The notes under the pieces: model-generated
What the model was told of the DNA's origin: nothing
Databases searched by the model: none
What the model saw: only the letters and a program-made list of their open reading frames with translations
Program-made: the position numbers and the translations under genes
In this document: positions 4,610 to 31,332 of the stretch, in pieces
How positions within the stretch are numbered: position 1 is the stretch's first letter
Layout: each line of letters opens with the position of its first letter
Virus record (IMG/VR): IMGVR_UViG_3300046006_001792
Location: 1-31,400 of that record
Length of the DNA stretch: 31,400 nucleotides
Origin: a virus
Strand: one strand, 5' to 3'

Positions 4610-4702
4610 TTTGTCCTTTCGCGTGTAACCGCCATACAATCGCCCGTGTTGCGTCCGTCCATCCGTTAAGGTGTTTGTACGTCTTTACGGCTGGCGTTCG
4701 TC

Positions 4703-8191: not shown

Positions 8192-8201
8192 AAGTTAATG
8201 C

Positions 8202-8224: not shown

Positions 8225-8241
8225 AAACAATTGATTGGTTG

Positions 8242-8607: not shown

Positions 8608-8979
8608 TTATTCAGTTTCCTTTCCTGCTTTAATCATTGCGTCTGCGATTAAAAACGACTCTCTTGCAAAATACTCTTTGTCGTTTTGTGAGTCTGGCGT
8701 ATGGTTTGAAAGCAAGCCTTGCAACGCCATACCAGCGAACCATTCGCGCTTTGTGAGACCGATTTGACTGATTGCCACATCACCGACTTGACGCAATTGA
8801 GCGCAGACGGTTTCTGGTTCTTCTGCGTAGATACGATTCACGATAATTCGAGCTGTTGTAATTATTGAGTCAAGGTTTTTTTCCGAATGTCCAGATGGAT
8901 TTACACCTGCCTCATCGTGTGTTTCATTTTGAGCAATATCCCTAATAAAGTCTAAATAGTCTCTTGTTTGCTTTGTCAT
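8608..8979 (-). CDS. Conserved phage protein of unknown function
   Basis: 123 residues. The phrase IGLTKREWFAGMALQGLLSN followed by SFLIADAMIKA is a recurrent pattern in small phage proteins of unknown function from replication regions. N-terminal half helical and acidic. It sits between the exonuclease block and the SSB-like gene. Confidence 0.75.
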   Translation of the reverse strand: MTKQTRDYLDFIRDIAQNETHDEAGVNPSGHSEKNLDSIITTARIIVNRIYAEEPETVCAQLRQVGDVAISQIGLTKREWFAGMALQGLLSNHTPDSQNDKEYFARESFLIADAMIKAGKETE

Positions 8980-10448: not shown

Positions 10449-10640
10449 CTACTCATTTCCTTTCTTATTGAACTTGTGAACATTCGCATACTTGACCGAC
10501 TCTCTGACCGCTAACGACATATTGCCGAAATAGTGGCGGTCTGTCATTTCGTTTAAGTCGTCAAATTCGTTTTTCGGCATTTCGAGGGACACTCGCGCCT
10601 TGTGATTCGGTTTGATCTTCTTTCTGATTGTGTTGCTCAT
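10449..10640 (-). CDS. Ribbon-helix-helix-like protein
   Basis: 63 residues. The order basic N terminus, strand (HKARVSLEMP), helix (KNEFDDLNEMTDRHY), turn, helix (MSLAVRESVKYANVH) fits the Arc/MetJ ribbon-helix-helix fold. Such dimers bind short palindromic operators. It is the best regulator candidate in the window and might act at 6023-6041. SD GAAAGGAACAGT; ATGA overlap with the gene upstream. Confidence 0.6.
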   Translation of the reverse strand: MSNTIRKKIKPNHKARVSLEMPKNEFDDLNEMTDRHYFGNMSLAVRESVKYANVHKFNKKGNE

Positions 10641-11128
10641 ACTGTTCCTTTCTTCAACTGTTCCGATGCGTTTGTGAGTGCTTGTAACTGGGTTTGAAAA
10701 GCCACCAATGAATATGATCTCTTTCTTCGTCTATCATTTGCGTCCATATATTCTTTGTTTTTTTGATACCAATCCTTCATGTATATTTTTTGCGAATCCC
10801 TTCTTAAAGAGTTATATTTTTTGTTTTTTTCCAGTATTGCACTTTTGTTTTTTAGATAATAGTATTTGCGTTTTTCTATTAGTTCTTCTTTGTTTTTTTC
10901 TCTATACATTTTCTGATAAGCGAGAGCCTTATCTTTATTTTTAAGATATTGCTTTTTCACATAACCAGCTACAGCATCTTTGTGTGTGTCTTGCCATTGC
11001 TTGACTCTTTTTCTATTATATTCTGAATTCTCCTCTCTCCACTTTTTGCTTTTAGCAAGAAGCTTTTCTCTATTATTTTTGTAATAGTTTTTTTTCCATG
11101 CTTCGTATTTGTCTTTGTCTCTTGGCAT
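10637..11128 (-). CDS. Highly basic repeat protein, copy 1
   Basis: 163 residues built of about seven imperfect 16-20-residue repeats of the form Y-x-K-N-x-E-K-x-x-x (YYKNNREKLLAKSKKW, YLKNKDKALAYQKMY, REKNKEELIEKRKYY). Very rich in K, Y, N and R; helical. It ends with LQALTNASEQLKKG, shared with the neighbour at 11132-11629. Such repeats occur before HNH nuclease domains in phage proteins, but no nuclease motif is present. The DNA is visibly more AT-rich than its surroundings. Possible DNA- or RNA-binding role; unproven. Confidence 0.75.
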   Translation of the reverse strand: MPRDKDKYEAWKKNYYKNNREKLLAKSKKWREENSEYNRKRVKQWQDTHKDAVAGYVKKQYLKNKDKALAYQKMYREKNKEELIEKRKYYYLKNKSAILEKNKKYNSLRRDSQKIYMKDWYQKNKEYMDANDRRRKRSYSLVAFQTQLQALTNASEQLKKGTV

Positions 11129-11131
11129 ATC

Positions 11132-11629
11132 CTAACCCTCCATTCCCTGCTTTAAAACACTTGACGCATTTTTAAGTATCTGTAACTGAGATATAAACTT
11201 TGATCTATACCTATTTGAAACACTTTTTTTACAAGTAGCCAATACCTTCTCAGGATTTAGCATCTTGTATTTTTTTGTTCTTTCTGCTACAGCATTTTTA
11301 TTTTTCCTAGCCCATTCAACTGCTTTAGCACTTAACCTATCTCTGTTTTTTTCTCCGTACTTTTTATTTGCAATCCTAATTGATTCCTTTGATACAATTC
11401 TTCTGATTCTGTCTTTTTCTCTTGCAACTTTTGGGTTTTCTTTTCTAAAAATTCTCATTTTTTCATTTATAGCATCTCTGTTTTCGTTTCTATATTTAGT
11501 TTTCCATGCCAATACCTTCTCTCGGTTTTTTGCTGTGTAATTTCTATACCACTCTAATGTTTTTTCATGATTTTCAATACGTCTTTGCCTTGCTCGTGCT
11601 TTTGCTTTTTCTTTGTCTTTGTAAGGCAT
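11132..11629 (-). CDS. Highly basic repeat protein, copy 2
   Basis: 165 residues, the tandem paralogue of 10637-11128: the same Y/W-x-x-K-N-R-E-K repeat (YTAKNREKVLAWKTKYRNEN) and the same C-terminal cap (LQILKNASSVLKQG). SD GGAGGGTT, like copy 1 (GGAGGGTTAGG), supporting duplication of the whole unit. AT-rich. No nuclease or zinc motif is seen. Confidence 0.75.
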   Translation of the reverse strand: MPYKDKEKAKARARQRRIENHEKTLEWYRNYTAKNREKVLAWKTKYRNENRDAINEKMRIFRKENPKVAREKDRIRRIVSKESIRIANKKYGEKNRDRLSAKAVEWARKNKNAVAERTKKYKMLNPEKVLATCKKSVSNRYRSKFISQLQILKNASSVLKQGMEG

Positions 11630-13912: not shown

Positions 13913-14019
13913 TGGTCTGTCCTTTCAAAAAATCGCGCCCCTTTGACCGTGTAGCTAGCGTATAGGTCTCGGTTGCTAACTCGTCCATGAAACGAGCGAG
14001 CAGGCGCAAAGTAAATCAT
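13909..14019 (-). CDS. 36-residue ORF coupled on both sides
   Basis: MIYFAPARSFHGRVSNRDLY... starts with an ATGA overlap with the lipoprotein stop and ends with a TGA inside the ATG of the PLA2-like gene. Double coupling makes a real micro-gene likely, although no SD is present. Basic, no membrane segment. Function unknown. Confidence 0.55.
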   Translation of the reverse strand: MIYFAPARSFHGRVSNRDLYASYTVKGARFFERTDQ

Positions 14020-14327
14020 TTTGGAATCAGCGGTGCGAGCGTCTGTATTGTATCACAAAGCTTGCCGATACTTTCCTTGTCTGGGTTCGTGCTAAACGAT
14101 TCTAGCTCAACTGTACCCTTCTCGTAATCGAACGCAAAGCCCTTTATCTGTCTGTCCCACAAAAACGAATCAGCCGTGGCTTCAATAACCGTACCGTCCT
14201 TCGTTGTCGTGGTGAATTGAACGCTCGTGCAACCGCTCAATAATACCACAGCCAAGCAGACCAGTAAAAGAGATAGTAGCGTAAAGTAGACGCATTTGAT
14301 TTTCTTTTCATAAAAGTTCCCTGTCAT
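14016..14327 (-). CDS. Phage lipoprotein, candidate outer-membrane lysis factor
   Basis: 103 residues. A basic start, a long hydrophobic stretch (about 14-31) and the lipobox LLSGC with C33 predict a signal-peptidase II lipoprotein. The mature part has TTTTKDGTVIEATADSFLWD, seen in small phage lipoproteins, and no Pro-rich spanin linker. It overlaps the holin-like gene by ATGA. It may act as an o-spanin or alter the cell envelope. Confidence 0.75.
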   Translation of the reverse strand: MTGNFYEKKIKCVYFTLLSLLLVCLAVVLLSGCTSVQFTTTTKDGTVIEATADSFLWDRQIKGFAFDYEKGTVELESFSTNPDKESIGKLCDTIQTLAPLIPK

Positions 14328-14659
14328 TTAAACACCTCCGCTAGTTTGTCGCTCGTTTTGTAGTAAGTATCAGCGTTATACTTTTGAACCATTTGCCAGA
14401 ATATAACGCCCATAAACCCTAATACAGCAAGTGCAACCGCCCGACCGTAGGATGCTAAGGTGTCAAACTTCTTGTCCAGTGAACCGAGTTTGCGATCAAT
14501 CTCGCTAAACTTCTCATTACCGACCTCAAGCTGTGACACGATAGGCGGTTTTCCATTGCCTTTATACAGCGTCTTTTCGATGCCATGAACGGCCTCTTTA
14601 ATCTCCGTAACATCGTCCCTTAATCTTATTACGTTGTCCCTCTGTTCGCATGGTGTCAT
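14324..14659 (-). CDS. Holin-like coiled-coil protein with C-terminal membrane segment
   Basis: 111 residues. An N-terminal coiled coil (about 8-70: DNVIRLRDDVTEIKEAVHGI) leads to one membrane segment (about 74-91: AVALAVLGFMGVIFWQMV) and a short polar tail. This resembles XhlA/haemolysin-type phage proteins that assist lysis. SD GGAGGGCGAAC; the start overlaps the stop of a 14-codon ORF by ATGA. Confidence 0.65.
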   Translation of the reverse strand: MTPCEQRDNVIRLRDDVTEIKEAVHGIEKTLYKGNGKPPIVSQLEVGNEKFSEIDRKLGSLDKKFDTLASYGRAVALAVLGFMGVIFWQMVQKYNADTYYKTSDKLAEVFK

Positions 14660-14720: not shown

Positions 14721-15641
14721 TTAGTTTGTCCGATAGCGAATGATGACGATGCCAGAACCGCCCGAACCGCCAGAAGTTGGCCCACCAGAACCAGAAGTTG
14801 ACGCACCACCACCACCACCGCCTTTTCCATTTACTCCGTTTCCACCTGCGTTTCTAGTTCCTGCAATCCAGCTTCCGCCTGCACCACCACCACCGTCTCC
14901 ACCAGAACCACCGTTTGCATTATACCCACCAGAACCACCGCCTCCACAATAGAATATACTTGCTCCCGAAAACGAGTTTGCAATACCATATCCACCGTTT
15001 GCGCCTGCGCCACTCGTATCAGATTTTCCTGCTTCTCCAGAACCACCACCAGAACCAGATGCTCCATATAAAGCAGAACCTACTCCGCCGCCAAATCCTT
15101 GATTTCCTGTTCCTGCTGTAGCTCCAATCGTAGAACCACCACCGCAACCACCGTTTGCACCTGCACCAGCTACGGATATAGAACCTATGCCACCTCGACC
15201 ACCACCATAAGCCGTAAATCCAATAGCTGAAGAATTAGCTCCACTTTCTGCAGAAGATACAGTACCAATACCTCCAAGACCAATTACAATCGAATAACTA
15301 GATGCTGAAATATCTAAATTTGTTACAACAAAACCACCAGCACCACCGCCTGCTCCAGAGTATGAGTTTCCCAAAGGTGTATAACCTCCACTACCACCAC
15401 CTCCAACTATCAGAGCCTCAACAGCTCCACCGCTCGTCACTTCAAGTGTACCGCTATTCGTGAATATGTGCGCTCGATAATTCACGCCTAGTTCCGTGTA
15501 GTTTGTGATCGTTCCACCTGTCGCCTGTACGCCTTGAACGGTATTTGACGCACTTGCAAACTGTTCGTCAAAATCTAAGTGCCATTGTGCTGACGCAATA
15601 AGCGTAAAAGCGAATAGGAGTGTTAATATGTTTTTCTTCAT
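14721..15641 (-). CDS. Exported glycine-rich tail-fibre-tip-like protein
   Basis: 306 residues. A clear Sec signal peptide (MKKNILTLLFAFTLIASA, likely cut after A18) is followed by a small beta domain (GTITNYTELGVNYRAHIFTN). About 200 residues of Gly-rich sequence follow (GGGGSGG, GAGGGAGG, GGSGGDGGGG), ending GGSGGSGIVIIRYR. This glycine-rich fold and ending are common in phage fibre tips and receptor-binding adhesins. The signal peptide is unexpected for a virion protein. SD AAAGGAGTAGG. Last gene of the fibre cluster. Confidence 0.8.
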   Translation of the reverse strand: MKKNILTLLFAFTLIASAQWHLDFDEQFASASNTVQGVQATGGTITNYTELGVNYRAHIFTNSGTLEVTSGGAVEALIVGGGGSGGYTPLGNSYSGAGGGAGGFVVTNLDISASSYSIVIGLGGIGTVSSAESGANSSAIGFTAYGGGRGGIGSISVAGAGANGGCGGGSTIGATAGTGNQGFGGGVGSALYGASGSGGGSGEAGKSDTSGAGANGGYGIANSFSGASIFYCGGGGSGGYNANGGSGGDGGGGAGGSWIAGTRNAGGNGVNGKGGGGGGASTSGSGGPTSGGSGGSGIVIIRYRTN

Positions 15642-15642
15642 G

Positions 15643-16926
15643 TTATAGGCCTACTCCTTTCCATGCAGAATCCGAAACTCTGCGAATCAATATTGTGTTC
15701 CATGCGTTTGTTGAAATGGTCGGAGTGGTCGCATAGGTAATCACGTTTGTGGCTAGTGTGACGCTGTTCGTTCCGCTGTAAAAGTTTAGTGATACGCGAC
15801 TGACTCCGCTCGTTCCGTAGCTTGTCGGGTCAAGCGTGATTACTGTCGGCTCGGTAATCGTAAGGCTAGGCATATTACCGTGAGCGTAGACAACCGTTGC
15901 CGTTCCGTTCGCTGGAGTGATTGTGGAAGTGAACGTCTTATAAGGTGCGGACATCGAAGCATCTATCCCCCCCAAGTGCGCCTCTACGTTCGCAGATGAT
16001 GCCGTGTAGTTCGTGGGGGTGAAGGATGTTTTTACGTTTGAAGATGCGATATTCGTCAATCCTGATCCATTACCTGCTAATGAAAGAGCAGTCAACGCAC
16101 CGCCTACATTAAAGCCGTCAGTCGTGCTAATAGCGCATGAACTACCAACACCCCACCGTAAGCACTCCGCACCGCTTAGCGAGTTTAGCGTACTACCTGC
16201 AGATGATGTGGATTTAACGCTGGCCGTATTAACCACATTGCTAAGTGCCGATAATGCAGGCGCAAGGTGTGGGTCTGTTTCTGCGGTCAACCATGCTTGG
16301 TGTGGTGCGACCACCCATCCATTTGTTTCAGAGCGTACCAACCAATCGAGGTGCGCTGAAACCGTCCATCCGTTGGTCATTGCTTGCGTTACATAGCTTG
16401 AAAGCAAGGTCGCGTGGCTTGTCAAATTCGTGTTATGGGTTGAGATTGCGCTGTTAATATCGTTTGTAGTTATGCACCCGACTACCTGCACGAATTGGAG
16501 CGCACTTCCAGCCACTTCCGTCTTCTTAATGTCCAACCGTCCCGTGCCCGTCCAGTAGATTGCGCTGTCCTTGTAGTATAAGATAGTGTAAACCCATGAT
16601 GTGGCGTTCGTTCCTAAGCTCGGTAATTGAATCAAATAGCTGTTTGAATAGTAACTCTGATTAGTAACCGATACCCAAAGCGTATTTGTAAGCGAACTTG
16701 AAAACCGCATGACCGCTTGAACGTCATTAGTCACGGTCAACGCCTTACCGCTCCGATATTGGTCACAGGCTATTAACGGACTCGACCCTTGCAATACTTC
16801 GAGCGTTGGTAATGAAGCCACTCCTGCCGTCTGTAGCTCGCACGGAATACGCTTTGCCCAATCGCGTGGGTCAGCGGTTGCGATTGTGGAAACGCCTATC
16901 AATAAACCAATCAATAGACTTCTCAT
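15643..16926 (-). CDS. Exported fibre/upper-baseplate-like protein
   Basis: 427 residues from ATG 16926 (ATGA overlap, SD AAAGAGGTGACG); the longer frame to 16953 lies in the previous gene. Signal peptide MRSLLIGLLIGVSTIATA, cut before DPRDW. Residues about 25-140 resemble a BppU-type upper-baseplate domain (LTNTLWVSVTNQS..., YYKDSAIYWTGTGRLDI). The middle has repeated NGW..AHxxWL phrases (TNGWTVSAHLDWL, TNGWVVAPHQAWL). The phrase TPTNYTASSANVEAHLGGID is typical of phage fibre shafts. The end is beta-rich. Probably a fibre or baseplate arm; the leader is unusual. Confidence 0.75.
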   Translation of the reverse strand: MRSLLIGLLIGVSTIATADPRDWAKRIPCELQTAGVASLPTLEVLQGSSPLIACDQYRSGKALTVTNDVQAVMRFSSSLTNTLWVSVTNQSYYSNSYLIQLPSLGTNATSWVYTILYYKDSAIYWTGTGRLDIKKTEVAGSALQFVQVVGCITTNDINSAISTHNTNLTSHATLLSSYVTQAMTNGWTVSAHLDWLVRSETNGWVVAPHQAWLTAETDPHLAPALSALSNVVNTASVKSTSSAGSTLNSLSGAECLRWGVGSSCAISTTDGFNVGGALTALSLAGNGSGLTNIASSNVKTSFTPTNYTASSANVEAHLGGIDASMSAPYKTFTSTITPANGTATVVYAHGNMPSLTITEPTVITLDPTSYGTSGVSRVSLNFYSGTNSVTLATNVITYATTPTISTNAWNTILIRRVSDSAWKGVGL

Positions 16927-17078
16927 TTCGTCACCTCTTTTCTTGATGTACATTTCGCTTTTATATCCAAAACCTTTTTGCTTTTAATGGAAAACTTTCC
17001 GCTTTTAGGAGTGTACGAAAAAACGTATTGAATCAAAATCTCTTTCAGTTCAACGTCAATTATCGGTTTACTTGCCAT
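16923..17078 (-). CDS. 51-residue basic protein
   Basis: MASKPIIDVELKEILIQYVF... with SD AAAGGAGAAAGC. It overlaps the previous gene (GATGGCAAGTAA) and ends in an ATGA overlap with the fibre gene. Very Lys-rich second half. Unknown; perhaps an assembly helper for the fibres. Confidence 0.6.
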   Translation of the reverse strand: MASKPIIDVELKEILIQYVFSYTPKSGKFSIKSKKVLDIKAKCTSRKEVTK

Positions 17079-17244
17079 CTGCTTTCTCCTTTTCTGCCAT
17101 CATTTCGTGAATATGCTTTTTGGCCGTTTCGTTAACCTGCTGTAAAATGTCGCCTGTCCATATTCCGAATGGGTCAGATTTAGCCATCATTATACAAAGA
17201 TTTTCTGCCTGCTTCAACGTCAAATTGATTGTAATTGTTGCCAT
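17068..17244 (-). CDS. 58-residue helical protein
   Basis: MATITINLTLKQAENLCIMM... with SD AAAGGAGTACAAACAA. Begins with a strand, then helices, and ends Lys/Glu-rich. It lies between two exported fibre proteins and overlaps the next small gene by 11 bases. No family recognised. Confidence 0.6.
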   Translation of the reverse strand: MATITINLTLKQAENLCIMMAKSDPFGIWTGDILQQVNETAKKHIHEMMAEKEKADGK

Positions 17245-17258
17245 TTGTTTGTACTCCT

Positions 17259-17900
17259 TTAATAGCTCTTGCCTGTTTCGCTGTCACTTCCAAAGCCGTC
17301 CTTAATAACGTGGCAGTCTAAGTCCGTGACCGTGACCGCGCCTGTCCCTTGGTTTCCTTGCCTGTGTAGCTTAATTCGGATGATGCTTGAAACTCCATTG
17401 CTAAGTCCAGTTATCGGTAGAAAAGATGCTAGTTGGTGCATAGTACCGCCTGCATAGGTAATGCGATTAGAGGCCGCACCGCTGAATATCTCCGTTTCGT
17501 TCGTATGTCCTACCCCTGTTATATTGTAATAGCAAAACCACATGTTCGTTTGATCGGCGTTTGTCTGCCAAAAGTGCAGGTGCGGATAAATGTCTGTCCC
17601 CTTTTTCCGTGCGTGTGGAACTTGTAGCGTGAAAGTCAAATGGTCGTTCGCTTTGTTCGTGGTAGCAGAGGTTTTGAACGACTTACCGCCAAGCGTGTCA
17701 TCTGCTTCTATGTCCGTTTGTCCAGACGTATAGGCCGTGTTTGCGCTTGCCAGAATGTCATCCCATCCATAAGGCGCGTTCGTGACACCGCCACCACCGC
17801 CCTTCGTAAAGAAGCGTGTACCGTCCGACCATACGATGTTCGTTTGTGCGTGCAACGAAACCGCTAAACATATCGCCAAAAGTGTAGTAATCGTTTTCAT
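17259..17900 (-). CDS. Exported fibre/appendage-domain protein
   Basis: 213 residues. Signal peptide MKTITTLLAICLAVSLHA, cut before QTNIV. A Gly hinge (KGGGGGV) is followed by a domain with LQVPHARKKGTDIYPHLHFW and IIRIKLHRQG. The phrase PHxxxxGTxxxPHxHW is recurrent in phage fibre C-terminal domains. SD TAAGGAGCGC. The match suggests a receptor-binding or fibre-head protein; the signal peptide is atypical. Confidence 0.75.
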   Translation of the reverse strand: MKTITTLLAICLAVSLHAQTNIVWSDGTRFFTKGGGGGVTNAPYGWDDILASANTAYTSGQTDIEADDTLGGKSFKTSATTNKANDHLTFTLQVPHARKKGTDIYPHLHFWQTNADQTNMWFCYYNITGVGHTNETEIFSGAASNRITYAGGTMHQLASFLPITGLSNGVSSIIRIKLHRQGNQGTGAVTVTDLDCHVIKDGFGSDSETGKSY

Positions 17901-17901
17901 G

Positions 17902-19254
17902 TTATGCGCTCCTTATAACCAGAATTTTGTCGCTCGGTTGTGCGTCCTCGATTGAAATCTCTTGGATTGTCGCACCTGTCAAACCGCCCTTTGTTGTCCA
18001 GTTGGAAATGTCAACGCCCGCTACATCATTAAAATATATATTCGCAAACAACCCAACATCATAACTAGATTGACCGCCAAGCAAAAGAACACCTGTTCCA
18101 CCTCTTGAACCAATAGCCACAATATCCGTGCTAACAGCCAAATATTCATCATTCCAGTAATTTGCATCAGTATTTCCTTGAAGCGCAAATTCTCCAGCCC
18201 TTACAGTTCCGCTAGTGACATAGTTCTTTGTGTCTGTAAAAGGTGATGCAATCAAACCAGCCTCATGCCAGTATGAATCATCATGGTCAGTATTACCGCC
18301 AGACAGTCCAGTCCCCTTTGCGGACGTTGAACCGCTGAAGTCAAGCGTGGTATGCGTTAATTTATCATCCCAATCACTATTCCACGGAATATAACCGCCG
18401 ATTGCGTCGCCTAAGTCATCAAGGAATGAAGTATCAGCTACTAGGTTTGCTTTAAGGTCGCTAATCAATGTCCGTAGATTGTACCAGCGAACGTCTGCGC
18501 CATCGCCTGTGCTGTTAGTTTCGCGCAATGAAATGTGCTGTGTCCGTGCTGGCGTTTCTGCGAATGGTGCTTCGTCTGGCGTTAATGGAGTCATGAAGCC
18601 GTAAGCCCCTACGGTGTGATCTTCGCTGTCCCAATCGCCATTATCGGACGGCCTTGCGATTGATCGGAATTTAGGAGATGGTAAATCACCATCAAATGAA
18701 GTGCGCTCGTAATTGATTGCGGAATGATGCAAGGAATAAATACCCTGCGTGGCGGTATAAGCGAGAATAGGAATTTTTACATATTTTCCAGTCGGTGATA
18801 CGGTTGCGTCAGTTCCGAAAGCAAGTGTAATTGGCTTGCCTGTCATATTTGTAAAAACGTCATTCGAAAAATTGATATACGCATTTAACCCTGTAGTCGA
18901 AAACGATGCAACTGAATACCAATCGGGCGAGCCAACACCTATTGCGGTCAGTCCTGTTTGCAGGGCAGTGAAGTCCTTTCCGTTGACTGTAAAGGAATTG
19001 GTAGGCATGTAGATGCACGTGACACCGCCTATATCCTTGATCTGCCAAACGTGTAACGCTTCCTCTTCACCGCCTGTCAAACCGTCAATGATGATTCTCG
19101 GGATAAGTCCGTTCCGTCCGTTGTGCCATTGAACGTGTCCGCCGATGATCTCAATGCGTTCCCAAATTTCCTCAAGCAAGCGCAAACCGCGAGCGACACC
19201 GCGCAAGGCTAACGGTTTCTTTTCCATCGGTGTATTTGTGAATATTCTACCCAT
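17902..19254 (-). CDS. Putative tail-tip or baseplate protein
   Basis: 450 residues, no signal peptide. The N terminus (LRGVARGLRLLEEIWERIEI) is helical and could anchor to the tail. The rest is beta-rich with fibre-like stretches (TTLDFSGSTSAKGTGLSGGN) and ends DAQPSDKILVIRSA. Order after the tape measure and before the fibres supports a distal-tail or tail-tip role. SD CAGGGAGTTAAT. No named family is certain. Confidence 0.6.
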   Translation of the reverse strand: MGRIFTNTPMEKKPLALRGVARGLRLLEEIWERIEIIGGHVQWHNGRNGLIPRIIIDGLTGGEEEALHVWQIKDIGGVTCIYMPTNSFTVNGKDFTALQTGLTAIGVGSPDWYSVASFSTTGLNAYINFSNDVFTNMTGKPITLAFGTDATVSPTGKYVKIPILAYTATQGIYSLHHSAINYERTSFDGDLPSPKFRSIARPSDNGDWDSEDHTVGAYGFMTPLTPDEAPFAETPARTQHISLRETNSTGDGADVRWYNLRTLISDLKANLVADTSFLDDLGDAIGGYIPWNSDWDDKLTHTTLDFSGSTSAKGTGLSGGNTDHDDSYWHEAGLIASPFTDTKNYVTSGTVRAGEFALQGNTDANYWNDEYLAVSTDIVAIGSRGGTGVLLLGGQSSYDVGLFANIYFNDVAGVDISNWTTKGGLTGATIQEISIEDAQPSDKILVIRSA

Positions 19255-19255
19255 A

Positions 19256-19591
19256 TTAACTCCCTGACTCTGGAACGTCTGTTAGTGTATAAGCGAAGTC
19301 TGTGCGCGTGGTAATCCGTTTTGAAAGCGTATATCCTGCGCCAAATTCGTCCTGCCGTGAATACTGCAATGCAAGCTCTGGGTGCGCCGTGATATAGTCC
19401 GTGCAAGCTCCCTCTGTTAGTGCGTAGTGCTTATACTCCGAGAATACCTCTAAATAAGTAACGGTTAGCTTCTTTGTTGTATAAGATCCATCTGCATTTT
19501 TGCGCTGAAACGTGGACTCATAGCCGTCTGGATTGCTCCCACCGCTTTGAAGTTTCCAGTTTGCCTCATTGACTGATGTTGCTAGTGCCAT
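19256..19591 (-). CDS. Putative tail protein downstream of tape measure
   Basis: 111 residues, beta-rich with aromatic residues (YTTKKLTVTYLEVFSEYKHY). SD TTAAGGAGCGG. It lies between the tape measure and the tail-tip protein, where a distal-tail or hub component is expected, but no hallmark motif is visible. Confidence 0.55.
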   Translation of the reverse strand: MALATSVNEANWKLQSGGSNPDGYESTFQRKNADGSYTTKKLTVTYLEVFSEYKHYALTEGACTDYITAHPELALQYSRQDEFGAGYTLSKRITTRTDFAYTLTDVPESGS

Positions 19592-19602
19592 AAAACCGCT
19601 CC

Positions 19603-20967
19603 TTAATTCATCTGGTTAAGTTCCGTTTGCTTGCGCAGAATGTCGGTCAGCTTTTGGTTCAACTCATTCTGCTTATTTGCAACGTCCTTTAAATCCATTT
19701 CCTTTAGATTCTTTGCGCCAACACCTCCAAGCCGTCCAGCTTCCTTAATTGCCTTGAAACCGTCTAGCCATTCCTTGTCACGCTTTGACAGTTTCGTACC
19801 GCGAGCCTCCATGGCCATCAATTGTGCGCCACGCTTATCTTCCTGCGACCTTCCTTTCTCTTCGTCCTTCTTTTTGCGCGAATCATCAATAAACTGCGCG
19901 ACCGTCTTTTTGGCGATATCCTCATTTTCGCGCACCTGCTTTTCCCATGCCTTGCGGTGTTCCTCTCTTGCATTATCCTCAATGGCTTTTTGTGCGTCGA
20001 CTTCCTGCTTCTTTAAATCTTCAAGCTTCCTGGCAGTCTCTTCGGCCAGTTTAACGCGCTCTTCCTGTGCCTTTCGTTCTAACTCCAGGCTTTCGGCCTG
20101 TGCTTTAATCTTTTCGGCCTCGATACCTTTTTCAGTTTCGGCAGATATGCGGATGTTCTCTGTTGCATCCATGCGCAACTTGCCGACCTCGCTCAATACC
20201 TTCGCTTGTTCGTCACGGTATTGTTTTGCGAGTGCGGTCGCTTCATCCTTGGCTTTTTGCAGGCTCTCGATTTCCTTCGTGTTTGCGGTCGATGCAAAAC
20301 CGAGAAACGATCCAGACAGTTTTGATTCTTGACCTGCCATTGCAGATGCGCGAGATAATGCCTCCACGGACTTCTTGCCTAATTCACGCGCCTGCACTTC
20401 CAGCTTAGTGGCCTGCTGTTCCTTCATGCTGGCCTCTTGACGCTTCCGTGCTACTTCGTCAATAATATCCTGCTGTGCCTGTGCGCTCTTGGTTGCGATA
20501 TCACGCGCTTGGTACTCCGCTTCGATTGCCTTGCGCTCTTCCTCGGTTGTTGCCGACATTAAACGCTTGGACTTCTCTAAGTCCGTGTTTGCGTCTGATA
20601 ATGCTCGAGTTGACTTTTTGGCCTCATCAAAAACCTTGTTATTAGTCGCAAAAATGGCTTCTGTTTTTGCGTATTGCTCTTGCATCTTCGTGACGGATTC
20701 TTTCAAACGGTCAAACTGCGCCTTTAATTCCTCGCTTCTCTGTTCACGCATTGCCCGACCAAAACCGCGTATGGCCTCTTCAGCGGTATCAATGCCCTTT
20801 TTAAACGCCATCACGCCTGCACTGATAACAAGGATAGGTTTCGCGCCAATGTCAAACAAACCCTTTAAGCGGTCAGAAAACCCCTTAACGCTTGCTTGTG
20901 CTTGCGCTAGGCCAGCATTAAGCATGTTCTTTGTCCGTAGCGTAATCGTTAGGTCTTTATTTGCCAT
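19603..20967 (-). CDS. Short tape-measure-like protein
   Basis: 454 residues. The N terminus DLTITLRTKNMLNAGLAQAQ followed by a hydrophobic segment (PILVISAGVMAFKKG, about 44-58) is typical of tape-measure proteins. Residues about 70-370 are almost continuous coiled coil rich in E, K, A and Q. It is short for a siphovirus; at about 1.5 angstroms per residue it would give a tail of about 70 nm. SD TTAAGGAAGC. It overlaps the chaperone-like gene by 11 bases. Confidence 0.75.
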   Translation of the reverse strand: MANKDLTITLRTKNMLNAGLAQAQASVKGFSDRLKGLFDIGAKPILVISAGVMAFKKGIDTAEEAIRGFGRAMREQRSEELKAQFDRLKESVTKMQEQYAKTEAIFATNNKVFDEAKKSTRALSDANTDLEKSKRLMSATTEEERKAIEAEYQARDIATKSAQAQQDIIDEVARKRQEASMKEQQATKLEVQARELGKKSVEALSRASAMAGQESKLSGSFLGFASTANTKEIESLQKAKDEATALAKQYRDEQAKVLSEVGKLRMDATENIRISAETEKGIEAEKIKAQAESLELERKAQEERVKLAEETARKLEDLKKQEVDAQKAIEDNAREEHRKAWEKQVRENEDIAKKTVAQFIDDSRKKKDEEKGRSQEDKRGAQLMAMEARGTKLSKRDKEWLDGFKAIKEAGRLGGVGAKNLKEMDLKDVANKQNELNQKLTDILRKQTELNQMN

Positions 20968-21601
20968 TGTGCTTCCTTAAAAGTGATTGAGTGTAGCGAG
21001 CGAGAATGAGTGTTGCCTTTTCAATGCGCGTTTTCTTCTGTTCCGCTTCGTCCTGTTTGCAAGTCGTATCAATGAAGTTTCGCACGTAATCAATTGAGCA
21101 TTGACGTTCCCACATTTCAAACGTACCGCCATGATTATCGACCATCAATTGCGCCAATTGTGCGAGCGTGATACTGTTGTCCTCTTTTACTGGCAAATCA
21201 TCACGCTTGCATTGGTCAATGATGATGGTTAAACAGTGGCGCACTTCTTGGATGGTTGCTCTAATGGTTTTAAACCATGCTTCGATCTGTTCCTCTGTCA
21301 CCGTATAAAGGTCTGCGTCACGGTGCGCCATTGCGTAGGCCAGCGCGTGTTCCGAGTGTTGCATCTCGCACCCGACATCATCCCACCATGTACCGCTATG
21401 AATTGTCAACGGCCAAAAGAACACATTACCGCACTTTATAGGCTTTCCACGCGCCAATGATACGCGCTTGGACGGTGTTTCGATTTCCCATGCAAGCGCG
21501 TTAATGGCTATGATATCAGAATCCGAGAGCGTCACGCCTTGTGCGCGTAACGCCTCGATCTCTGCCTCCGCTTGACTCGAAAGTGTGCGGTAGTTCTTCA
21601 T
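20957..21601 (-). CDS. Putative tail-assembly chaperone
   Basis: 214 residues between tail tube and tape measure, the constant place of the lambda G/GT-type chaperone. Helical, with a Trp-rich middle (VFFWPLTIHSGTWWDDVG). The end runs into the tape-measure start (KHNGK stop). I see no convincing slippery heptamer for a -1 frameshift product. Assignment rests on position. The SD is weak. Confidence 0.55.
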   Translation of the reverse strand: MKNYRTLSSQAEAEIEALRAQGVTLSDSDIIAINALAWEIETPSKRVSLARGKPIKCGNVFFWPLTIHSGTWWDDVGCEMQHSEHALAYAMAHRDADLYTVTEEQIEAWFKTIRATIQEVRHCLTIIIDQCKRDDLPVKEDNSITLAQLAQLMVDNHGGTFEMWERQCSIDYVRNFIDTTCKQDEAEQKKTRIEKATLILARYTQSLLRKHNGK

Positions 21602-21607
21602 GTGGTT

Positions 21608-22408
21608 TTATGCCGATACGCGAGGAAGGCTGGTTGCAGGGTCAGCCAGTGTTGCGCTTGCAGAACCAGTCCAATACTCGTTTGGAGCTTTGGACGTTGC
21701 AGGGTTGGCAAGGTTGCTCCATAGGAAGCCTGTTGCGGTGTCGAGCGTCCACGGTTGCAGGAATTGAGCCAACTCTGCGAACGCCACAAAGTCAGCACTC
21801 ATAGAACCGTCAGCGCCATGAATTGAAAACGAGACGGGCAAACCTTCACCGTCTGTCGTTTCCGAAAAGTTGACCGTGAAGTCCAGTCCGCTTCCAGTAC
21901 ACTTGCAATCTGCCTCGGTGTCAAAACCAAGCTCGCCACTTCCACCGCCTCCGAAGTCCTGCGCAACCTTACGGCCAGCAATACTGATTGCAGGTAACGC
22001 CCACTTATTAAGGAATGTTGCAGGCGGTGCTTCTATCACCTTTCCGACATTACCAGTGATTGACACGGTAGGCCAGCCACCGTTTGAAGTCTTGACCGAG
22101 ATTGCGGTGATATTCGTTCCGCTGGTTGCAGTTGCGCCCATAAACAGGTCTGACAAAACGAGCGTACCTGTGAACACTTCCAGTTCCTCGGTAAACTCAT
22201 ACATGGTCGTGGCCGCGCCAAAAGTTGATTTTGCCGCGACGTCTCCATATTCATCACTTGCAATGCTCGTTCCCTTTGCGATAGGTGTGCGAGTAGCTCC
22301 TTTGATTTTCAGAACATCAGCAAGTGTTCCTCCACCTGTTTTCACAAGTATCAAAACGCCTGCTATATCATCAGTCGATTTTACTGCCCACGGTTTTACA
22401 TCTGCCAT
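21608..22408 (-). CDS. Major tail tube protein
   Basis: 266 residues. The beginning ADVKPWAVKSTDDIAGVLIL and the beta-rich body (FTEELEVFTGTLVLSDLF) fit a tube monomer. An internal Gly/Cys patch (FGGGGSGELGFDTEADCKCTGSG) is odd. A Ser/Ala-rich end (EYWTGSASATLADPATS) follows. Position between the terminator-like protein and the chaperone supports the call. SD ACGGAGGAAAAG. No Ig-like domain is certain. Confidence 0.7.
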   Translation of the reverse strand: MADVKPWAVKSTDDIAGVLILVKTGGGTLADVLKIKGATRTPIAKGTSIASDEYGDVAAKSTFGAATTMYEFTEELEVFTGTLVLSDLFMGATATSGTNITAISVKTSNGGWPTVSITGNVGKVIEAPPATFLNKWALPAISIAGRKVAQDFGGGGSGELGFDTEADCKCTGSGLDFTVNFSETTDGEGLPVSFSIHGADGSMSADFVAFAELAQFLQPWTLDTATGFLWSNLANPATSKAPNEYWTGSASATLADPATSLPRVSA

Positions 22409-22422
22409 AATCTTTTCCTCCG

Positions 22423-22914
22423 TTAAAAGTCAGCCCGACTATAGGCAATGACTAAAGTTAATCCAACATAAAGCCGACCCTCTCCGTCCTCATCTGGTGG
22501 TGTAGGGTCGCCAATATACAGCCCACCGATAGATACAGCGCACTCGCTTTCGATACTAGCCACCAAGTCAGCGTATAGGCCACTGGTTGCGTTTGAGCGG
22601 TGCTGTGCGTACAAAGTATCTAAGCATTCCTGCGTTGCTTCCTCGATTGAATTAAGCGTACTGTGCGCTTGATCGTCTGCAAGATTGGTATAGATGGTTA
22701 ATGCGACCTCACACATGAGCGTCACGGCGTTTGCTTGGTCAAGCCGCGGAGGGGATGCTTTAACGTCAATGCAAGGAAACTTTCTATCATTTCCAGCGTC
22801 CCACTTTTCATCTTTTTGAAGGTTGCGCCATGAACGGATAAGCGTTGAAGCTCCTACGCCGTATGAACGGAGAGCATCAACGGTTGCCGATTCGATTGTT
22901 TTTGGAATGTTCAT
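22423..22914 (-). CDS. Tail terminator-like protein (gpU position)
   Basis: 163 residues from ATG 22914, which shares its A with the previous TAA; the longer frame needs a TTG start inside the previous gene. Alpha/beta pattern with FPCIDVKASPPRLDQANAVTLMCE and AHSTLNSIEEATQECLDTL resembles small tail-completion proteins. Position fits lambda U. Confidence 0.6.
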   Translation of the reverse strand: MNIPKTIESATVDALRSYGVGASTLIRSWRNLQKDEKWDAGNDRKFPCIDVKASPPRLDQANAVTLMCEVALTIYTNLADDQAHSTLNSIEEATQECLDTLYAQHRSNATSGLYADLVASIESECAVSIGGLYIGDPTPPDEDGEGRLYVGLTLVIAYSRADF

Positions 22915-23603
22915 TAAGAAGTAAGTCCTAACTTTTTTAGATGCCAATCAATACGCTTTTCGAGTTGCTTCGCTCCGTCAATCATTGCATTGTTGACCGC
23001 ACCTAAACCGCCATACATTGCGTCAACGATATAGCCAAGCCTATTACGAATCTCGATCTGACTATCACCAAGACTCCAGCGAACCGCGCTTGCATTAATA
23101 CGGCCTTCACGCAACACGCCACCGCTTCTTAAATACTTTCCTAATTTAGTCCATGACCGTTTCGCAAGTCCGCTCCGTTTGATGTATGTCTTTGGGTGGT
23201 TTTTCAGTCTAATATCCTTCTCTGAAAGCTCCTTAATCTCTGCATTGGTAAACCGTTTCCACAATCCACCTACCTTTAAAAGAACGCCTCCGCGGTCAAG
23301 ATACTTAATTGACTGTCCGTATTCACCACCGCCACGTATAGGCGAGAAAATTTGCTTGCCTTTTTTGTACTTCATCACGCCTAAAGGTGCTTTGCGTGAA
23401 TCGGTTAAATACGTCTTGTCTGGATTGTCAACAATTTTCCTGCGCTTTGCCGATATTTTGCATGATGCGCCCAAGCTTGACATTACTGAAAATGCCGCCC
23501 ACGAAAGCGCGTCCTTATTGCTTTTGCCTAACTCTTTTTCAGCTCTCTTAATGCCGTCAAAAGGCCTCTGCATATCAGCCTTATCTATTGATGCGCTTAT
23601 CAT
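22914..23603 (-). CDS. Minor tail/neck protein (gpZ or HK97 gp10 position)
   Basis: 229 residues, strongly basic. The N-terminal helix (ADMQRPFDGIKRAEKELGKS) and the C-terminal helix (AMIDGAKQLEKRIDWHLKKL) bracket a charged core, as in lambda Z/HK97 gp10-type proteins. ATGA overlap with the previous gene; SD GAGGCGGTG. Assignment from order and shape. Confidence 0.6.
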   Translation of the reverse strand: MISASIDKADMQRPFDGIKRAEKELGKSNKDALSWAAFSVMSSLGASCKISAKRRKIVDNPDKTYLTDSRKAPLGVMKYKKGKQIFSPIRGGGEYGQSIKYLDRGGVLLKVGGLWKRFTNAEIKELSEKDIRLKNHPKTYIKRSGLAKRSWTKLGKYLRSGGVLREGRINASAVRWSLGDSQIEIRNRLGYIVDAMYGGLGAVNNAMIDGAKQLEKRIDWHLKKLGLTS

Positions 23604-23920
23604 TGGTTCACCGCCTCAACCGTTAGCGTGGTCAACCCTTGTCTGCGCTTTATTCCCTTTACTCGAATTGCGAACGTCTGCGCGGTTGCGTCCGTAAAGG
23701 TGTAAATCTGATTGTGCTTGATTCCTTCCGTTGGCTCGTTGGCGGTTAAGACATGGAGCGAACCGCCCTGTGTGATAACGATACCAATATTGCTATCCTG
23801 CGCGTCATTCTGTACGCCAGCGCAAACACACGAAAACGCCTCAACGGTTGCGGTCGATAGAGTACCGCGCCAATCCGTATTTGCGTACAATCCTGCGTAT
23901 ATGTCTGCGCCTATTGCCAT
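23600..23920 (-). CDS. Head-closure/connector-like protein (gpFII position)
   Basis: 106 residues, beta-rich, ending TFAIRVKGIKRRQGLTTLTV. The size, order and beta content fit a head-tail joining protein such as lambda FII. SD CTAGGAACG. No specific motif proves it. Confidence 0.5.
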   Translation of the reverse strand: MAIGADIYAGLYANTDWRGTLSTATVEAFSCVCAGVQNDAQDSNIGIVITQGGSLHVLTANEPTEGIKHNQIYTFTDATAQTFAIRVKGIKRRQGLTTLTVEAVNQ

Positions 23921-23942
23921 AATCGTTCCTAGTTTAGAAAGA

Positions 23943-23977
23943 CCCCTCCGAGGTTAATTGATATCCAAGCGAGGGGG
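23943..23977 (-). terminator. Hairpin in the capsid-neck gap, weak terminator or processing site
   Basis: CCCCTC (23943-23948) pairs with GAGGGG (23971-23976). On the minus strand TCTTTCT follows, a broken U-run. It lies in the 80-base gap between the exported protein and the neck gene and may reduce readthrough. Confidence 0.4.
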
Positions 23978-24000
23978 AAAGTCAGCAGTTGACTCTTCTT

Positions 24001-24624
24001 TTAAGGGGTGATCACGTTGTTAATCAAAATACCCTGCGCGTTAAACGTCAGCGTATTTGTCTTGCTGTCGGTCGAAAGAACTACTAACGTGATTGCTCCT
24101 AGGTTATTCGTTGCAATCTGCGCTTGTGCCAACTTAGTATCGAGTGTAACAGCACCAGTTACGTTAAACGCACCTGTAACCTTCACGGTTGCTTCCGTAA
24201 TATTAAGAACGGTTGCACTCGTTGAGTTGTCAATTGTTGCGCTACCAAGCATAGTAACAATACCAGTATTCCCGAAAGCGAGAATATCAGCGAGTGTTCC
24301 CTTAGACGCGCTGTCAGACTGAAACTTGAAACCACCGTTATCTGGGACAAGAATTTTATTCTTGTCTCCAGCGTCAGCACTTCCGTCAACGTCAGCCGTG
24401 ATTGAAGCCGTGCCAGCGTTTGAGCTGTTGGTCAGCGTAATGTCGGCGGCGGTTGTAACACCAGCCGCGACAAGGCGAGACTCTGCATCAGCGGCGTTAG
24501 CGTTCAGAATTGCACGAAGCTGAACAGGGTCTTGAACCTGCCGTTTACTGATTGCGCTTTCCTGTGTTGCATAAGCACTCAACGAGAGAGCCATACAAGC
24601 AACTTGAATTAGATTTTTCTTCAT
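24001..24624 (-). CDS. Exported beta-repeat protein beside the capsid gene
   Basis: 207 residues. A Sec signal peptide (MKKNLIQVACMALSLSAYA, likely cut before TQESA) is followed by a short helix (ISKRQVQDPVQLRAILNANA). A Thr/Asn/Ala-rich beta-solenoid-like stretch follows (ITLTNSSNAGTASITADVDG, ATVKVTGAFNVTGAVTLDT). Directly after the capsid gene one expects a decoration or head-fibre protein, which this could be. The leader means it may be exported instead. SD AAAGGAAAATTAC. No family named. Confidence 0.7.
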   Translation of the reverse strand: MKKNLIQVACMALSLSAYATQESAISKRQVQDPVQLRAILNANAADAESRLVAAGVTTAADITLTNSSNAGTASITADVDGSADAGDKNKILVPDNGGFKFQSDSASKGTLADILAFGNTGIVTMLGSATIDNSTSATVLNITEATVKVTGAFNVTGAVTLDTKLAQAQIATNNLGAITLVVLSTDSKTNTLTFNAQGILINNVITP

Positions 24625-24636: not shown

Positions 24637-24666
24637 TCAAAAGGGAGGCAGGTTGTCGTCCCTGCC
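24637..24666 (-). terminator. Weak terminator/attenuator after the capsid gene
   Basis: On the minus strand GGCAGG (24661-24666) pairs with CCTGCC (24647-24652), followed by TCCCTTTT. The 6-bp stem and four Ts suggest partial termination, which would keep the capsid transcript more abundant than downstream genes. Confidence 0.45.
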
Positions 24667-24683
24667 GTTTTGTTTACCAACGA

Positions 24684-25646
24684 TTAAGCGTTCGCAACGG
24701 TGGACTCATTCAGCTTGATGTGATCCGAAACGAGAATCGGAATACCCTCGATGTCGGTAGGAATCATTGCAGGCGCACCGCTGGGGCTATAAGCCGTGCG
24801 GGACTTCTGCAACTGAGCGCGAGCCGAGCGAGACATGACAACCACGTTCGGTGTCTGCCCGACAGGGAACTTACCGAGAGCGTCAGCCAGATGGTCATCG
24901 GTCAGCGTGTGGCCAGTCGTTCCGTCCAAGTTGCAAATACGTCCGAGACCGAAGATGTTACCATACTGCACTGCGAAGTAAGCCTGCAACGCGACTGCCA
25001 GAGCCATGTAACCGCGCTGTGAAGCAGGGGTTGCGCTGGCAACTGTCGGAATGTAAACAAGCGTTTCGGGGTCATACGAGAACTCAACAGAGCCTTCGTT
25101 ACCAGCGACAACGGCAACCGAGCTAGGATCGGTCTTTAGCAACCAAACGGACTGACCACCAGCACCGCCAGCATTGACAACCATCGTGTCGTCAGCCTTG
25201 TCAACTGTGGTCTGGTCTGGGAATCCAGAGAAGCCAGTGCCAGTGATAGCCGCCGAACCCTGCAACATATTCTGTTCAAGTCCTGCGAACATAGCACGCA
25301 GAGCACGTTGCGTCTCGAAGGCGATATAAGCCGCCTTGCCACCCTTGTAACCAGAGGCCAGAGCAACATCACGGAAGAAAGAAGCGTCATGCAGTACGCA
25401 AGTGACGGACACCTGCTCATCAGCACCAGCGGTATTGATGATACCAGTGTTGATAGCGCGTGCCTGCGAACTTGCGGCGGTAACTTCCTTCATGTACTTG
25501 TGAACCGTTCCACCTTGCGAGGCTTTGACTGCGGCCATTGCGCGAAGCAAAGGAGCGTCTTGCAACAGGTCGGTCACGTTAATGTCAGCGTTGTTTGCGT
25601 CATTGAGCAGGATAAGCCCTGCGAGTGTATCAGAGAGGTTACTCAT
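24684..25646 (-). CDS. Major capsid protein
   Basis: 320 residues from ATG 25646 (MSNLSDTLAGLILLN), with AAAGGAACG upstream; the longer frame overlaps the protease end. Layout: an N-terminal arm (1-60), a central core (ARAINTGIINTAGADEQVSV), then PNVVVMSRSARAQLQKSRT and DIEGIPILVSDHIK near the end. The last two resemble the P-domain/A-domain ending of HK97-fold capsid proteins. Placement after protease-scaffold and before neck genes supports it. No separate delta domain is obvious; the scaffold is supplied by the fused gene. Confidence 0.85.
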   Translation of the reverse strand: MSNLSDTLAGLILLNDANNADINVTDLLQDAPLLRAMAAVKASQGGTVHKYMKEVTAASSQARAINTGIINTAGADEQVSVTCVLHDASFFRDVALASGYKGGKAAYIAFETQRALRAMFAGLEQNMLQGSAAITGTGFSGFPDQTTVDKADDTMVVNAGGAGGQSVWLLKTDPSSVAVVAGNEGSVEFSYDPETLVYIPTVASATPASQRGYMALAVALQAYFAVQYGNIFGLGRICNLDGTTGHTLTDDHLADALGKFPVGQTPNVVVMSRSARAQLQKSRTAYSPSGAPAMIPTDIEGIPILVSDHIKLNESTVANA

Positions 25647-28818: not shown

Positions 28819-29076
28819 CTATAATGTTTCTTTTTCCCTGCGAGTTACGAACGGTTTACCGCACTTTCCGCACAGCCTGCGCCTGTTTCCATTGCCGTAT
28901 GTGTTCGTGATCTTGTGGTCGTACCGATGGAAGCAATGAACGCACGGTATTCCTGCATCCGTTACTACCTTGTTTGGTATGCAGACCACCTTTTTACACC
29001 GCTCGATAAACGGTTTGATAATCTCTTGACCTTTAGGCGGTCGGCCACGTTTGCGCTTTGTTTCTGTTTCTATCAT
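28819..29076 (-). CDS. AT-hook plus zinc-ribbon DNA-binding protein
   Basis: 85 residues. KRKRGRPPKG (7-16) is a classic AT-hook; C45-x2-C48 and C69-x2-C72 (CVHC, then LCGKCGKPF) form a zinc ribbon like those of transposase InsA-type proteins. The start shares its A with the previous TAA. It follows the terminase after one small gene. It may help DNA recognition in packaging, standing in for a small terminase, but could also be a regulator. Confidence 0.75.
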   Translation of the reverse strand: MIETETKRKRGRPPKGQEIIKPFIERCKKVVCIPNKVVTDAGIPCVHCFHRYDHKITNTYGNGNRRRLCGKCGKPFVTRREKETL

Positions 29077-29330
29077 TATGCTTTCCTTTCTGTTAGGTTG
29101 TTTTGTTTTAGATAATCTGCCATCCGTTTTTCAATCTGTTGAACGTGTCGCTTAATTGCTTCGTCAACGTCTTTGAAAGCAACTTCAAATAATGGCTTGT
29201 CGTGATTTTCCGTAAAGTCTAAACATCTGCAATCATCTAAAAATGCGATGCAGGTTATTGATATACACGGAAAACATTGTCCAGTATTTTCGTCATTTTT
29301 AAATCCGTCTTTACAAACGGTTGTCTGCAT
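29076..29330 (-). CDS. Cys-rich hypothetical protein
   Basis: 84 residues from ATG 29330, set by AAAGGAGTTCA; the longer frame to 29429 lies in the terminase. Six Cys in the first 36 residues (CFPCISITC, CRC) suggest a metal site, followed by a long basic helix (KRHVQQIEKRMADYLKQNN). Not recognised. Confidence 0.7.
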   Translation of the reverse strand: MQTTVCKDGFKNDENTGQCFPCISITCIAFLDDCRCLDFTENHDKPLFEVAFKDVDEAIKRHVQQIEKRMADYLKQNNLTERKA

Positions 29331-29340: not shown

Positions 29341-31332
29341 TCATATTGCCACATGGCGAATCTGTCGCCGTGGACGTTGTTGTTGTTGAACCATTCCTTG
29401 CATTGACCCGACACCCTGCATATCTGCAATCAGATAGCAGATATTCAAAGCGTCTGACAAATCGTTTTTACCTGCGCTCTTTTCAAAGTCGAAAATCATG
29501 CGACCGTTTAGCTCGACCTTTCCGCGCAACTTTTCACGGCAGATATGCTCGGCAAACTCGTGGTGACTTCCCTGCGGTAATGTGATACCACCTGCCGCCC
29601 CTGTCTCGCAAGTGAAAGCACGTTGCATGATTTCGCGCCAATAGTCCGAATTCCAAAGCACCCATTCCGTTGAACCGTAAACAGGGTCACGGTCACGGCA
29701 TAGCAACCATGATTGATCGTTACCTCTGCGCCTTATCGTTTCATTACGAGCAGATATACGCGCAGACTTTCCGCTTCGTCCGTATGTTACTACAACCGCC
29801 ATTTCGGGATGCTTGCGATTCCATTCATATGCGAACCGCTTAGCAACCGTTGACTGCGCTCCACCGCCATCTATTCCCCATTGACGAGCCTTTGATGGAT
29901 AACCAAGCAACTGTTCGCCATGTTTCCAAAGCGCACCAAATATGATCTGTTGTTTTTGCGTGTCGCTCATCTCGTCGTTAGTCGGCAAAGGTGCGTCAGT
30001 ATACTTGCCGTACCATAGAACCGCACCTGTCCTGTCCTTTCCGAACGCTGTCACAACCGTTGACAAGGCGTAGGAAGGGTTAATATCAGTTCCGCACACG
30101 ATAAGCTCCGACCACTCTGGCACTTGGAAGGCTTGGCGGTCTGACTTGCGCGATAGGATAACCTCTGGCGAGATCGAATAAACGTCAACGCCACGTTTCA
30201 ATGGCTCGTTTTGACGCTCGGCCATGAAAGCAAGCTCGCCCATTACAAAGAAGTCAACCATAGCAGAGTACTTTGCATGAGGTTGACAGCGTTTCGAGTC
30301 AAACCTACCGTCCCATGATACGGTCATTCCTTCAATCATACCGCTTTCATGCTCGGTAAAATATGCCAGCGCATCTTGGTCTCCGTTGGTCAAGCGTATA
30401 TCATTCCATTCATTCCACTTTTGACGGCAATCGCTCTTTGTATCTTCCCATCCGTTAGGCCATCTAATGACTTGACCAGTCCTAATTACGCGCCAGTTAG
30501 GGTCTTTTGCGTAATGCTCTGCCACGTCGTCACGCTCAATCACGGTTGCAGTCATGATAATCGGCATCCGACTGTCTGGGCCAGCCATCCCCTTGATATC
30601 TCCGTTAATCGTTTCGATGGTCTGTTGAACAAGCGTTTGACTCTTTGCTGTATCTCTGTCCTGTGGGTCGTCGACAATTGCGATTGATGGACGGATAACA
30701 GATCCGTCTATTGAGGCGTAGTTCATGCCACGAGGGTTTCCGTTAATCGTTGCGCTTCCGATTGCGCCTAGACCGTTTGGCAGGATGATGATACCTTCAG
30801 AGATTGCGAGCATCGCACCTGTCGCCTCGTTTCCTTGCGTCAATGCGGTCAACCGATTTCCAATACCACGCGACTCTTTGAACACTGCTGTTGCTTCTGG
30901 ATAGTCTCGGTGGATGCGGTCATTGAAACAGAGTTGTGTTTTCCAGAAACGTAGCGCACGGTTTTTCGCCTTTGCATCCCACGGTAGGATGACAGGGAAA
31001 GGCGTAAGACCTTCGAGAAGAGCGTACAGTGTCAAGCCGTTTACCTCTGTACTTTTGCCAGTACCACGAGGCGCGAGGATTTCAACGTCACCACCAGTTT
31101 CAAGCGCATACATGAAGCCGTCTTTAATGTCATGGTGAACTTTTCCGAACGGCAAAGGGAACGATTCGAACAGGTAGCATTTAAGCCACGCCATCGGGTC
31201 GCCTTTAGGTGGACGCTCGAAGTTGTTATCTTTCAAGCGTTTAGGCTTGGAAGTAGGTGCGGAAACTTCACGCTTTGAGTCGCGGTATTTTGCGTTTGCT
31301 TCGAGTTGTTTCTTATAGGTTTTAGCTGGCAT
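29341..31332 (-). CDS. terL: Terminase large subunit
   Basis: 663 residues. ATPase: Walker A APRGTGKST (87-95) and Walker B IAIVDDP (217-223). Nuclease with RNase H fold: D416 in CGTDINPS, D488 in GIDGGGA, and D624/D627 in GKNDLSDALN. The two-domain motor cuts concatemeric DNA and pumps it into the prohead through the portal. The end is basic and Gln-rich (QQQQRPRRQIRHVAI). No clear SD lies before the ATG at 31332 (TTACAAAT). No small subunit is found upstream inside the window. Confidence 0.97.
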   Translation of the reverse strand: MPAKTYKKQLEANAKYRDSKREVSAPTSKPKRLKDNNFERPPKGDPMAWLKCYLFESFPLPFGKVHHDIKDGFMYALETGGDVEILAPRGTGKSTEVNGLTLYALLEGLTPFPVILPWDAKAKNRALRFWKTQLCFNDRIHRDYPEATAVFKESRGIGNRLTALTQGNEATGAMLAISEGIIILPNGLGAIGSATINGNPRGMNYASIDGSVIRPSIAIVDDPQDRDTAKSQTLVQQTIETINGDIKGMAGPDSRMPIIMTATVIERDDVAEHYAKDPNWRVIRTGQVIRWPNGWEDTKSDCRQKWNEWNDIRLTNGDQDALAYFTEHESGMIEGMTVSWDGRFDSKRCQPHAKYSAMVDFFVMGELAFMAERQNEPLKRGVDVYSISPEVILSRKSDRQAFQVPEWSELIVCGTDINPSYALSTVVTAFGKDRTGAVLWYGKYTDAPLPTNDEMSDTQKQQIIFGALWKHGEQLLGYPSKARQWGIDGGGAQSTVAKRFAYEWNRKHPEMAVVVTYGRSGKSARISARNETIRRRGNDQSWLLCRDRDPVYGSTEWVLWNSDYWREIMQRAFTCETGAAGGITLPQGSHHEFAEHICREKLRGKVELNGRMIFDFEKSAGKNDLSDALNICYLIADMQGVGSMQGMVQQQQRPRRQIRHVAI

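Follow-up and report, generated by a model that had tools for sequence, protein, structure and literature searches.

Why would late proteins of a tailed phage, whose particle assembly is taken to be wholly cytoplasmic, carry the signal for leaving the cytoplasm? The question is raised by a 31,400-base stretch of the virus record IMGVR_UViG_3300046006_001792 (the window), a fragment of a siphovirus-like phage with its late genes all on the minus strand. Four of its proteins, one encoded beside the capsid gene (starting at 24624) and three at the tail-fibre end (starting at 17900, 16926 and 15641; each protein is named here by its start), open with leaders of the secretory (Sec)/signal-peptidase-I type. 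An earlier note on this DNA had described these leaders and called the export of such proteins unexpected, and our analysis agrees with it on both points.

Four late proteins are predicted Sec substrates

All four leaders consist of a basic n-region, an uncharged hydrophobic core of at least 9 residues and a cleavage site with small residues at positions −3 and −1 (AYA, LHA, ATA and ASA), the leucine at −3 in the 17900 site being still permitted. The capsid-adjacent protein (24001-24624) is 207 aa long and is encoded directly downstream of the major capsid protein (MCP) gene; its 19-aa leader (24568-24624, delimited by signal-peptide scoring) is MKKNLIQVACMALSLSAYA, followed by TQ, and its mature part is rich in serine, threonine, asparagine, glutamine and glycine and belongs to no family. 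The leaders at the tail-fibre end are each 18 aa long. They open a 213-aa PHxHW-domain protein (17259-17900; MKTITTLLAICLAVSLHA before QT), a 427-aa fibre-like protein with a TPTNYT..GID motif (15643-16926; MRSLLIGLLIGVSTIATA before DP), the reading frame of which stays open for 9 further codons upstream, and a 306-aa glycine-rich tip protein (14721-15641; MKKNILTLLFAFTLIASA before QW).

The leaders were scored with a home-made scorer based on the von Heijne cleavage matrix; its absolute scores are approximate. Under a looser version of the scorer, 300 shuffles of residues 2-35 were made per protein, and not one, for any of the four, reached the observed score. A strict version passed 4 of the 56 called window genes, exactly these four, as against 5 of 795 non-lipoprotein genes from 25 phage and prophage control stretches (Fisher p 0.0017, a descriptive value because the strict scorer was written after the window was seen). 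Among the five control positives are lambda Lom, which is truly exported, and at least one other that looks false. For each gene, only the leader ATG among the nearby starts has a Shine–Dalgarno match (5-6 nt), which bears out the earlier statement that the leaders are no artefact of start choice. We predict from these features that the four late-operon products are exported by Sec and cleaved by signal peptidase I.

The leaders appear to be restricted to proteins of virion-exterior type and to exclude the assembly core, as had been proposed: none is present on the portal, the MCP, the tube, the tape measure or the tail-tip/fibre-like protein 17902-19254, which is encoded between leader-bearing genes and provides an internal control. 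The mature parts of the four proteins have the highest serine, threonine, asparagine, glutamine and glycine content among the late proteins (0.42-0.60). We rejected a need for disulfides as the reason for export, as the cysteine counts (0, 2, 5 and 2) are not systematically above those of core proteins.

Leaders are retained in a sister phage

Related contigs amount to a handful, all out of a few metagenomes. The comparison record G001 (34,330 bases) has a late region near-identical to that of the window, and its terminase gene is split over the record ends, so that it is apparently circularly permuted. A divergent sister phage, G002 (32,489 bases), retains the leaders of 17900 and 16926. The 17900 leader differs there by three synonymous and three nonsynonymous changes with hydrophobicity kept; for both leaders pooled there are 6 synonymous changes in 27.5 sites and 4 nonsynonymous changes in 80.5 sites, and the core stays hydrophobic. 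Because nonsynonymous differences are few and the hydrophobic core is retained, these two leaders are very probably translated and under selection, albeit on small counts. Behind the 16926 leader the N-terminal part of the protein is also retained in G002, and the C-terminal part is replaced; 15641 has no match in G002. The 332-base gap between the 17900 and 16926 genes (16927-17258) corresponds in G002 to a small open reading frame (28944-29162), of which a decayed remnant may survive in the window.

A cement domain follows a leader in the sister phage

The head module of G002 differs from that of the window, its MCP belonging to phrog_617 (E 1e-98). Directly after this MCP gene lies a gene (21667-22128) that is unrelated to 24624 and opens with a 19-residue leader, MNKFNGFLVSIMLSAGVYA before AD. 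The distribution of leaders in G002 parallels that in the window: they stand on the capsid-adjacent protein and at the fibre end, and the portal, MCP, tube and tape measure are without one. From residue 23 onwards its product matches phrog_5707, a cement/decoration family (4e-10). A profile made from the family alignment matched 3j4u (5e-15), the solved cement protein of Bordetella phage BPP-1, and the decoration protein 8cjz (1e-10). Cut to two leader-bearing and two cyanophage sequences, with no Verrucomicrobiota or Chantilly rows, the profile matched 3j4u at 1e-4, and the G002 sequence alone gave 8cjz as its top match (E 0.016, aligned from residue 23).

Elsewhere the family lacks the leader. 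The Synechococcus phages S-CBS1 (9.5e-36) and S-LBS1 (4e-34) have full-length, leaderless phrog_5707 matches; in these two phages and in Akkermansia phage Chantilly the leaderless member is encoded just after the capsid gene, and leaderless members are also present in Verrucomicrobiota prophages. Conservation of the leaders in related phages, which the earlier note had put forward as a check, thus holds for 17900 and 16926 in G002 and breaks down at the distant relatives of the G002 cement protein. Because those relatives are leaderless, the leader is a derived addition, not a mis-called start, and has here been joined to a virion decoration domain. The slot itself is shared: the gene stands directly, or one short gene, after the MCP gene in G002, S-LBS1, S-CBS1 and Chantilly, and so does that of the unrelated 24624 in the window. 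Comparison of G002 with a second relative revealed near-identical DNA over the MCP end, the Shine–Dalgarno site and the leader (98%), with a lower value (0.87) in the short intergenic stretch with a hairpin. Immediately beyond the predicted cleavage site identity fell to about 0.75, as though behind a fixed leader the mature part were free to diverge or be exchanged. A search of all viral contigs with the leader DNA of the G002 cement gene for other mature domains returned only known contigs.

Family assignments among the four window proteins are uneven. Protein 15641 matches Pfam Gly_rich_2 (3e-18) and phrog_2295 (1.6e-44), aligning to positions 554-848 of the 1183 in the latter; 17900 gave only a LamB match below threshold, and 16926 had no match in the profile libraries. 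The fibre-type character that the earlier note had seen in all three is upheld by family matches for 15641 alone; the TPTNYT motif has matches only at E 3-8, mostly to Rhizobium phage tail fibres, and is no proof of fibre identity. For 24624 there was one sub-threshold family match, and we rejected the idea that it is a distant cement protein, as it does not match the cement family profile (PHROG 5707). It holds the slot directly after the MCP gene that a cement protein occupies in the sister phage, and is more plausibly a capsid-adjacent protein of decoration type than a tail fibre. None of 15641, 16926, 17900 and the G002 cement protein had a match among 50,697 phages, and a scan of genome collections for the 17902-19254 tip protein likewise came back empty.

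Export and joining at lysis weighed against other readings

What could exported proteins of this kind do? In the explanation that we favour, with a probability of roughly 0.4, the leaders export decoration, fibre and tip accessories to the periplasm, and the proteins meet the particles at lysis. Late in infection the four proteins would pass through Sec into the periplasm of a diderm host and have their leaders trimmed off; the mature proteins would be kept there, apart from DNA packaging and tail assembly, until the opening of the cell allowed them to coat or attach to finished particles. That the host is probably diderm, with an outer membrane, is suggested by a spanin-like pair at 14016-14659, a lipoprotein (lipobox LSGC) and a protein with one transmembrane segment. 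The fuller scheme, a two-compartment assembly in which heads and tails are made in the cytoplasm and the decoration and fibre accessories are Sec-exported, matured in the periplasm and added when lysis mixes the compartments, is rather doubtful.

Several points weigh against export followed by joining. We found no solved or annotated virion relative for 24624, 17900 or 16926, and AlphaFold models were of low confidence and unusable (pLDDT 37 for 24624 and 29 for 16926). Among 13 Verrucomicrobiota prophages whose capsid proteins are related, leaders are almost missing; the exceptions are a protein at the fibre end in L063, a marginally matching post-capsid protein in L053 and a few lipoproteins. 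Soluble periplasmic proteins would, moreover, need to find the particles in a diluting lysate.

The exported proteins might instead stay out of the virion altogether and work in the infected cell's envelope, by masking receptors, excluding superinfection or keeping progeny from adhering to debris; virion-type domains would then serve anew as exported binding modules. Lambda Lom, a Sec-exported outer-membrane protein that the same scorer caught, is encoded in the late operon right after the tail tip gene J, and three of the four window genes stand at the corresponding place; 15641, aligned to an inner part of phrog_2295, resembles a fibre tip domain that has split off from a longer protein. Signal-peptide proteins of Porphyromonas gingivalis phages are likewise read as envelope-modifying (PMC10367356). 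This does not readily account for a leader in front of a capsid cement domain, or for leaders at the capsid-adjacent slot in two unrelated head modules. The four proteins have no evident outer-membrane anchor or barrel, and none of them matched Lom or any other known exclusion protein in PHROG, Pfam or NCBIfam. Nor did promoter and terminator matches around the genes, scanned for sigma-70-type promoters only, rise above those in shuffles, so that the genes are not seen to be flanked by a promoter and terminator of their own. Lom itself differs in being neither fibre nor cement and in being a single gene between J and the side-fibre gene, with no counterpart by the capsid gene. An envelope role, the closest rival, is possible if somewhat unlikely, and the fusion of leader and cement domain in G002 leads us to prefer export followed by joining slightly.

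A leaky export or dual localisation, in which weak or late-acting leaders leave a cytoplasmic pool to assemble normally and the exported pool is secondary, would accommodate cement and fibre domains that are normally cytoplasmic and let one gene product serve both compartments. However, the leader scores are strong, no Shine–Dalgarno-supported start just past the leader would give a leaderless form, and leaders left uncleaved would lie on the particle surface; we regard this reading as unlikely. N-terminal arms serve for binding in some decoration proteins, and the hydrophobic N termini could be retained capsid- or tail-binding arms rather than export signals, consistent with leader DNA that stays with the capsid block while the mature part diverges between G002 and its relative. 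Such arms would hardly be expected to share one n-h-c layout and a small-x-small site on proteins at both ends of the operon, and the family includes leaderless members, one of them solved on the capsid without such an arm, which makes the idea improbable. Chance hydrophobic N termini or wrong starts would draw on the apparent false positives that our home-made scorer gave among the controls, but the shuffles, the supported starts, the conservation in G002 and the excess over controls leave this explanation with very little likelihood.

Relation to known systems

A title and targeted search of the open-licence literature turned up no account of tailed phages whose decoration or fibre proteins have Sec leaders; cement proteins, fibre tips and Sec leaders are known classes, and their combination was not found described. 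The domain behind the G002 leader and its slot right after the MCP gene resemble the cement proteins represented by 3j4u, 8cjz and PHROG 5707, whereas the solved chains, like the members from cyanophages, Akkermansia phage and Verrucomicrobiota, are without a leader, and 24624 is not a detectable member. The coat proteins pIII and pVIII of filamentous phages are virion proteins with Sec leaders; inoviruses, however, assemble at the membrane during extrusion, whereas the window, with its terminase, portal and tape measure, belongs to a tailed phage. The Porphyromonas gingivalis phage genes share with the window Sec signals and, as in 17900 and 15641, a glutamine at +1, but the window genes have strong Shine–Dalgarno sites; those phage genes comprise genes of unknown function, spanins and capsid proteins with leaders ascribed to the prohead protease (PMC10367356). 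The joining of a conserved Sec leader to a cement domain, together with leaders at the fibre end, either breaks the rule of cytoplasmic assembly or shows virion domains re-used as exported envelope proteins, and both readings are testable.

Related prophages and the host

We rejected the notion that Verrucomicrobiota prophages carry such leaders as a rule; only isolated cases occur in them. In L063, which has a related capsid protein, a small protein encoded after a fibre-like gene (16706-17239) has a strong signal-peptide-like start, and the structural region of L051, which carries a PHROG 427/5707 cement protein, includes lipoprotein-type leaders at 3631-4806 and 8008-8661. Capture of host surface proteins, which the earlier note had offered as an origin, found no backing: among 378 Verrucomicrobiota genomes, nothing beyond marginal matches broken by stop codons turned up for 17900 and 16926 (E 0.009 and 0.006), the host phylum not being established.

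Two of the four window leaders (17900 and 15641) have glutamine at +1, as compared with 0 of 15 leaders from Verrucomicrobiota genomes, and 89% of window genes have a Shine–Dalgarno match. Strong Shine–Dalgarno sites are generally missing in Bacteroidota. The +1 glutamine recalls the Bacteroidota Q rule (PMC10367356), but the strong Shine–Dalgarno sites would argue against a host from that phylum.

Intergenic hairpin and late-gene layout

A hairpin (24647-24666, minus strand) with the loop GACGACAA lies in the gap that separates the MCP gene from the leader-bearing gene, and its loop pattern recurs in the corresponding position in G002 and the relative of G002. In all three relatives (24640-24680 of the window, minus strand; about 4935-4975 in L020 and L021) the 8-nt loop is GACGNNNA, with GTTGGTAA before and TCCC after; the stems differ among the three yet are self-complementary. 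The hairpin matched no Rfam family, and no other such hairpin occurs in the window, G001 or G002.

The late genes run in the order terminase (29341-31332), head-tail adaptor, portal, protease, MCP (24684-25643, minus strand; phrog_212), tail genes and the lipoprotein/transmembrane pair (minus strand). The window MCP is 27% identical to that of Akkermansia phage Chantilly. The terminase is mosaic when compared with L007 and L008: residues ~381-640 are essentially identical in the sister phage, and the N-terminal ATPase part is far more divergent. Two adjoining lysine-rich proteins of similar make-up are encoded at 10637-11629, where GC content is low (32%) compared with 47-49% in the neighbourhood.

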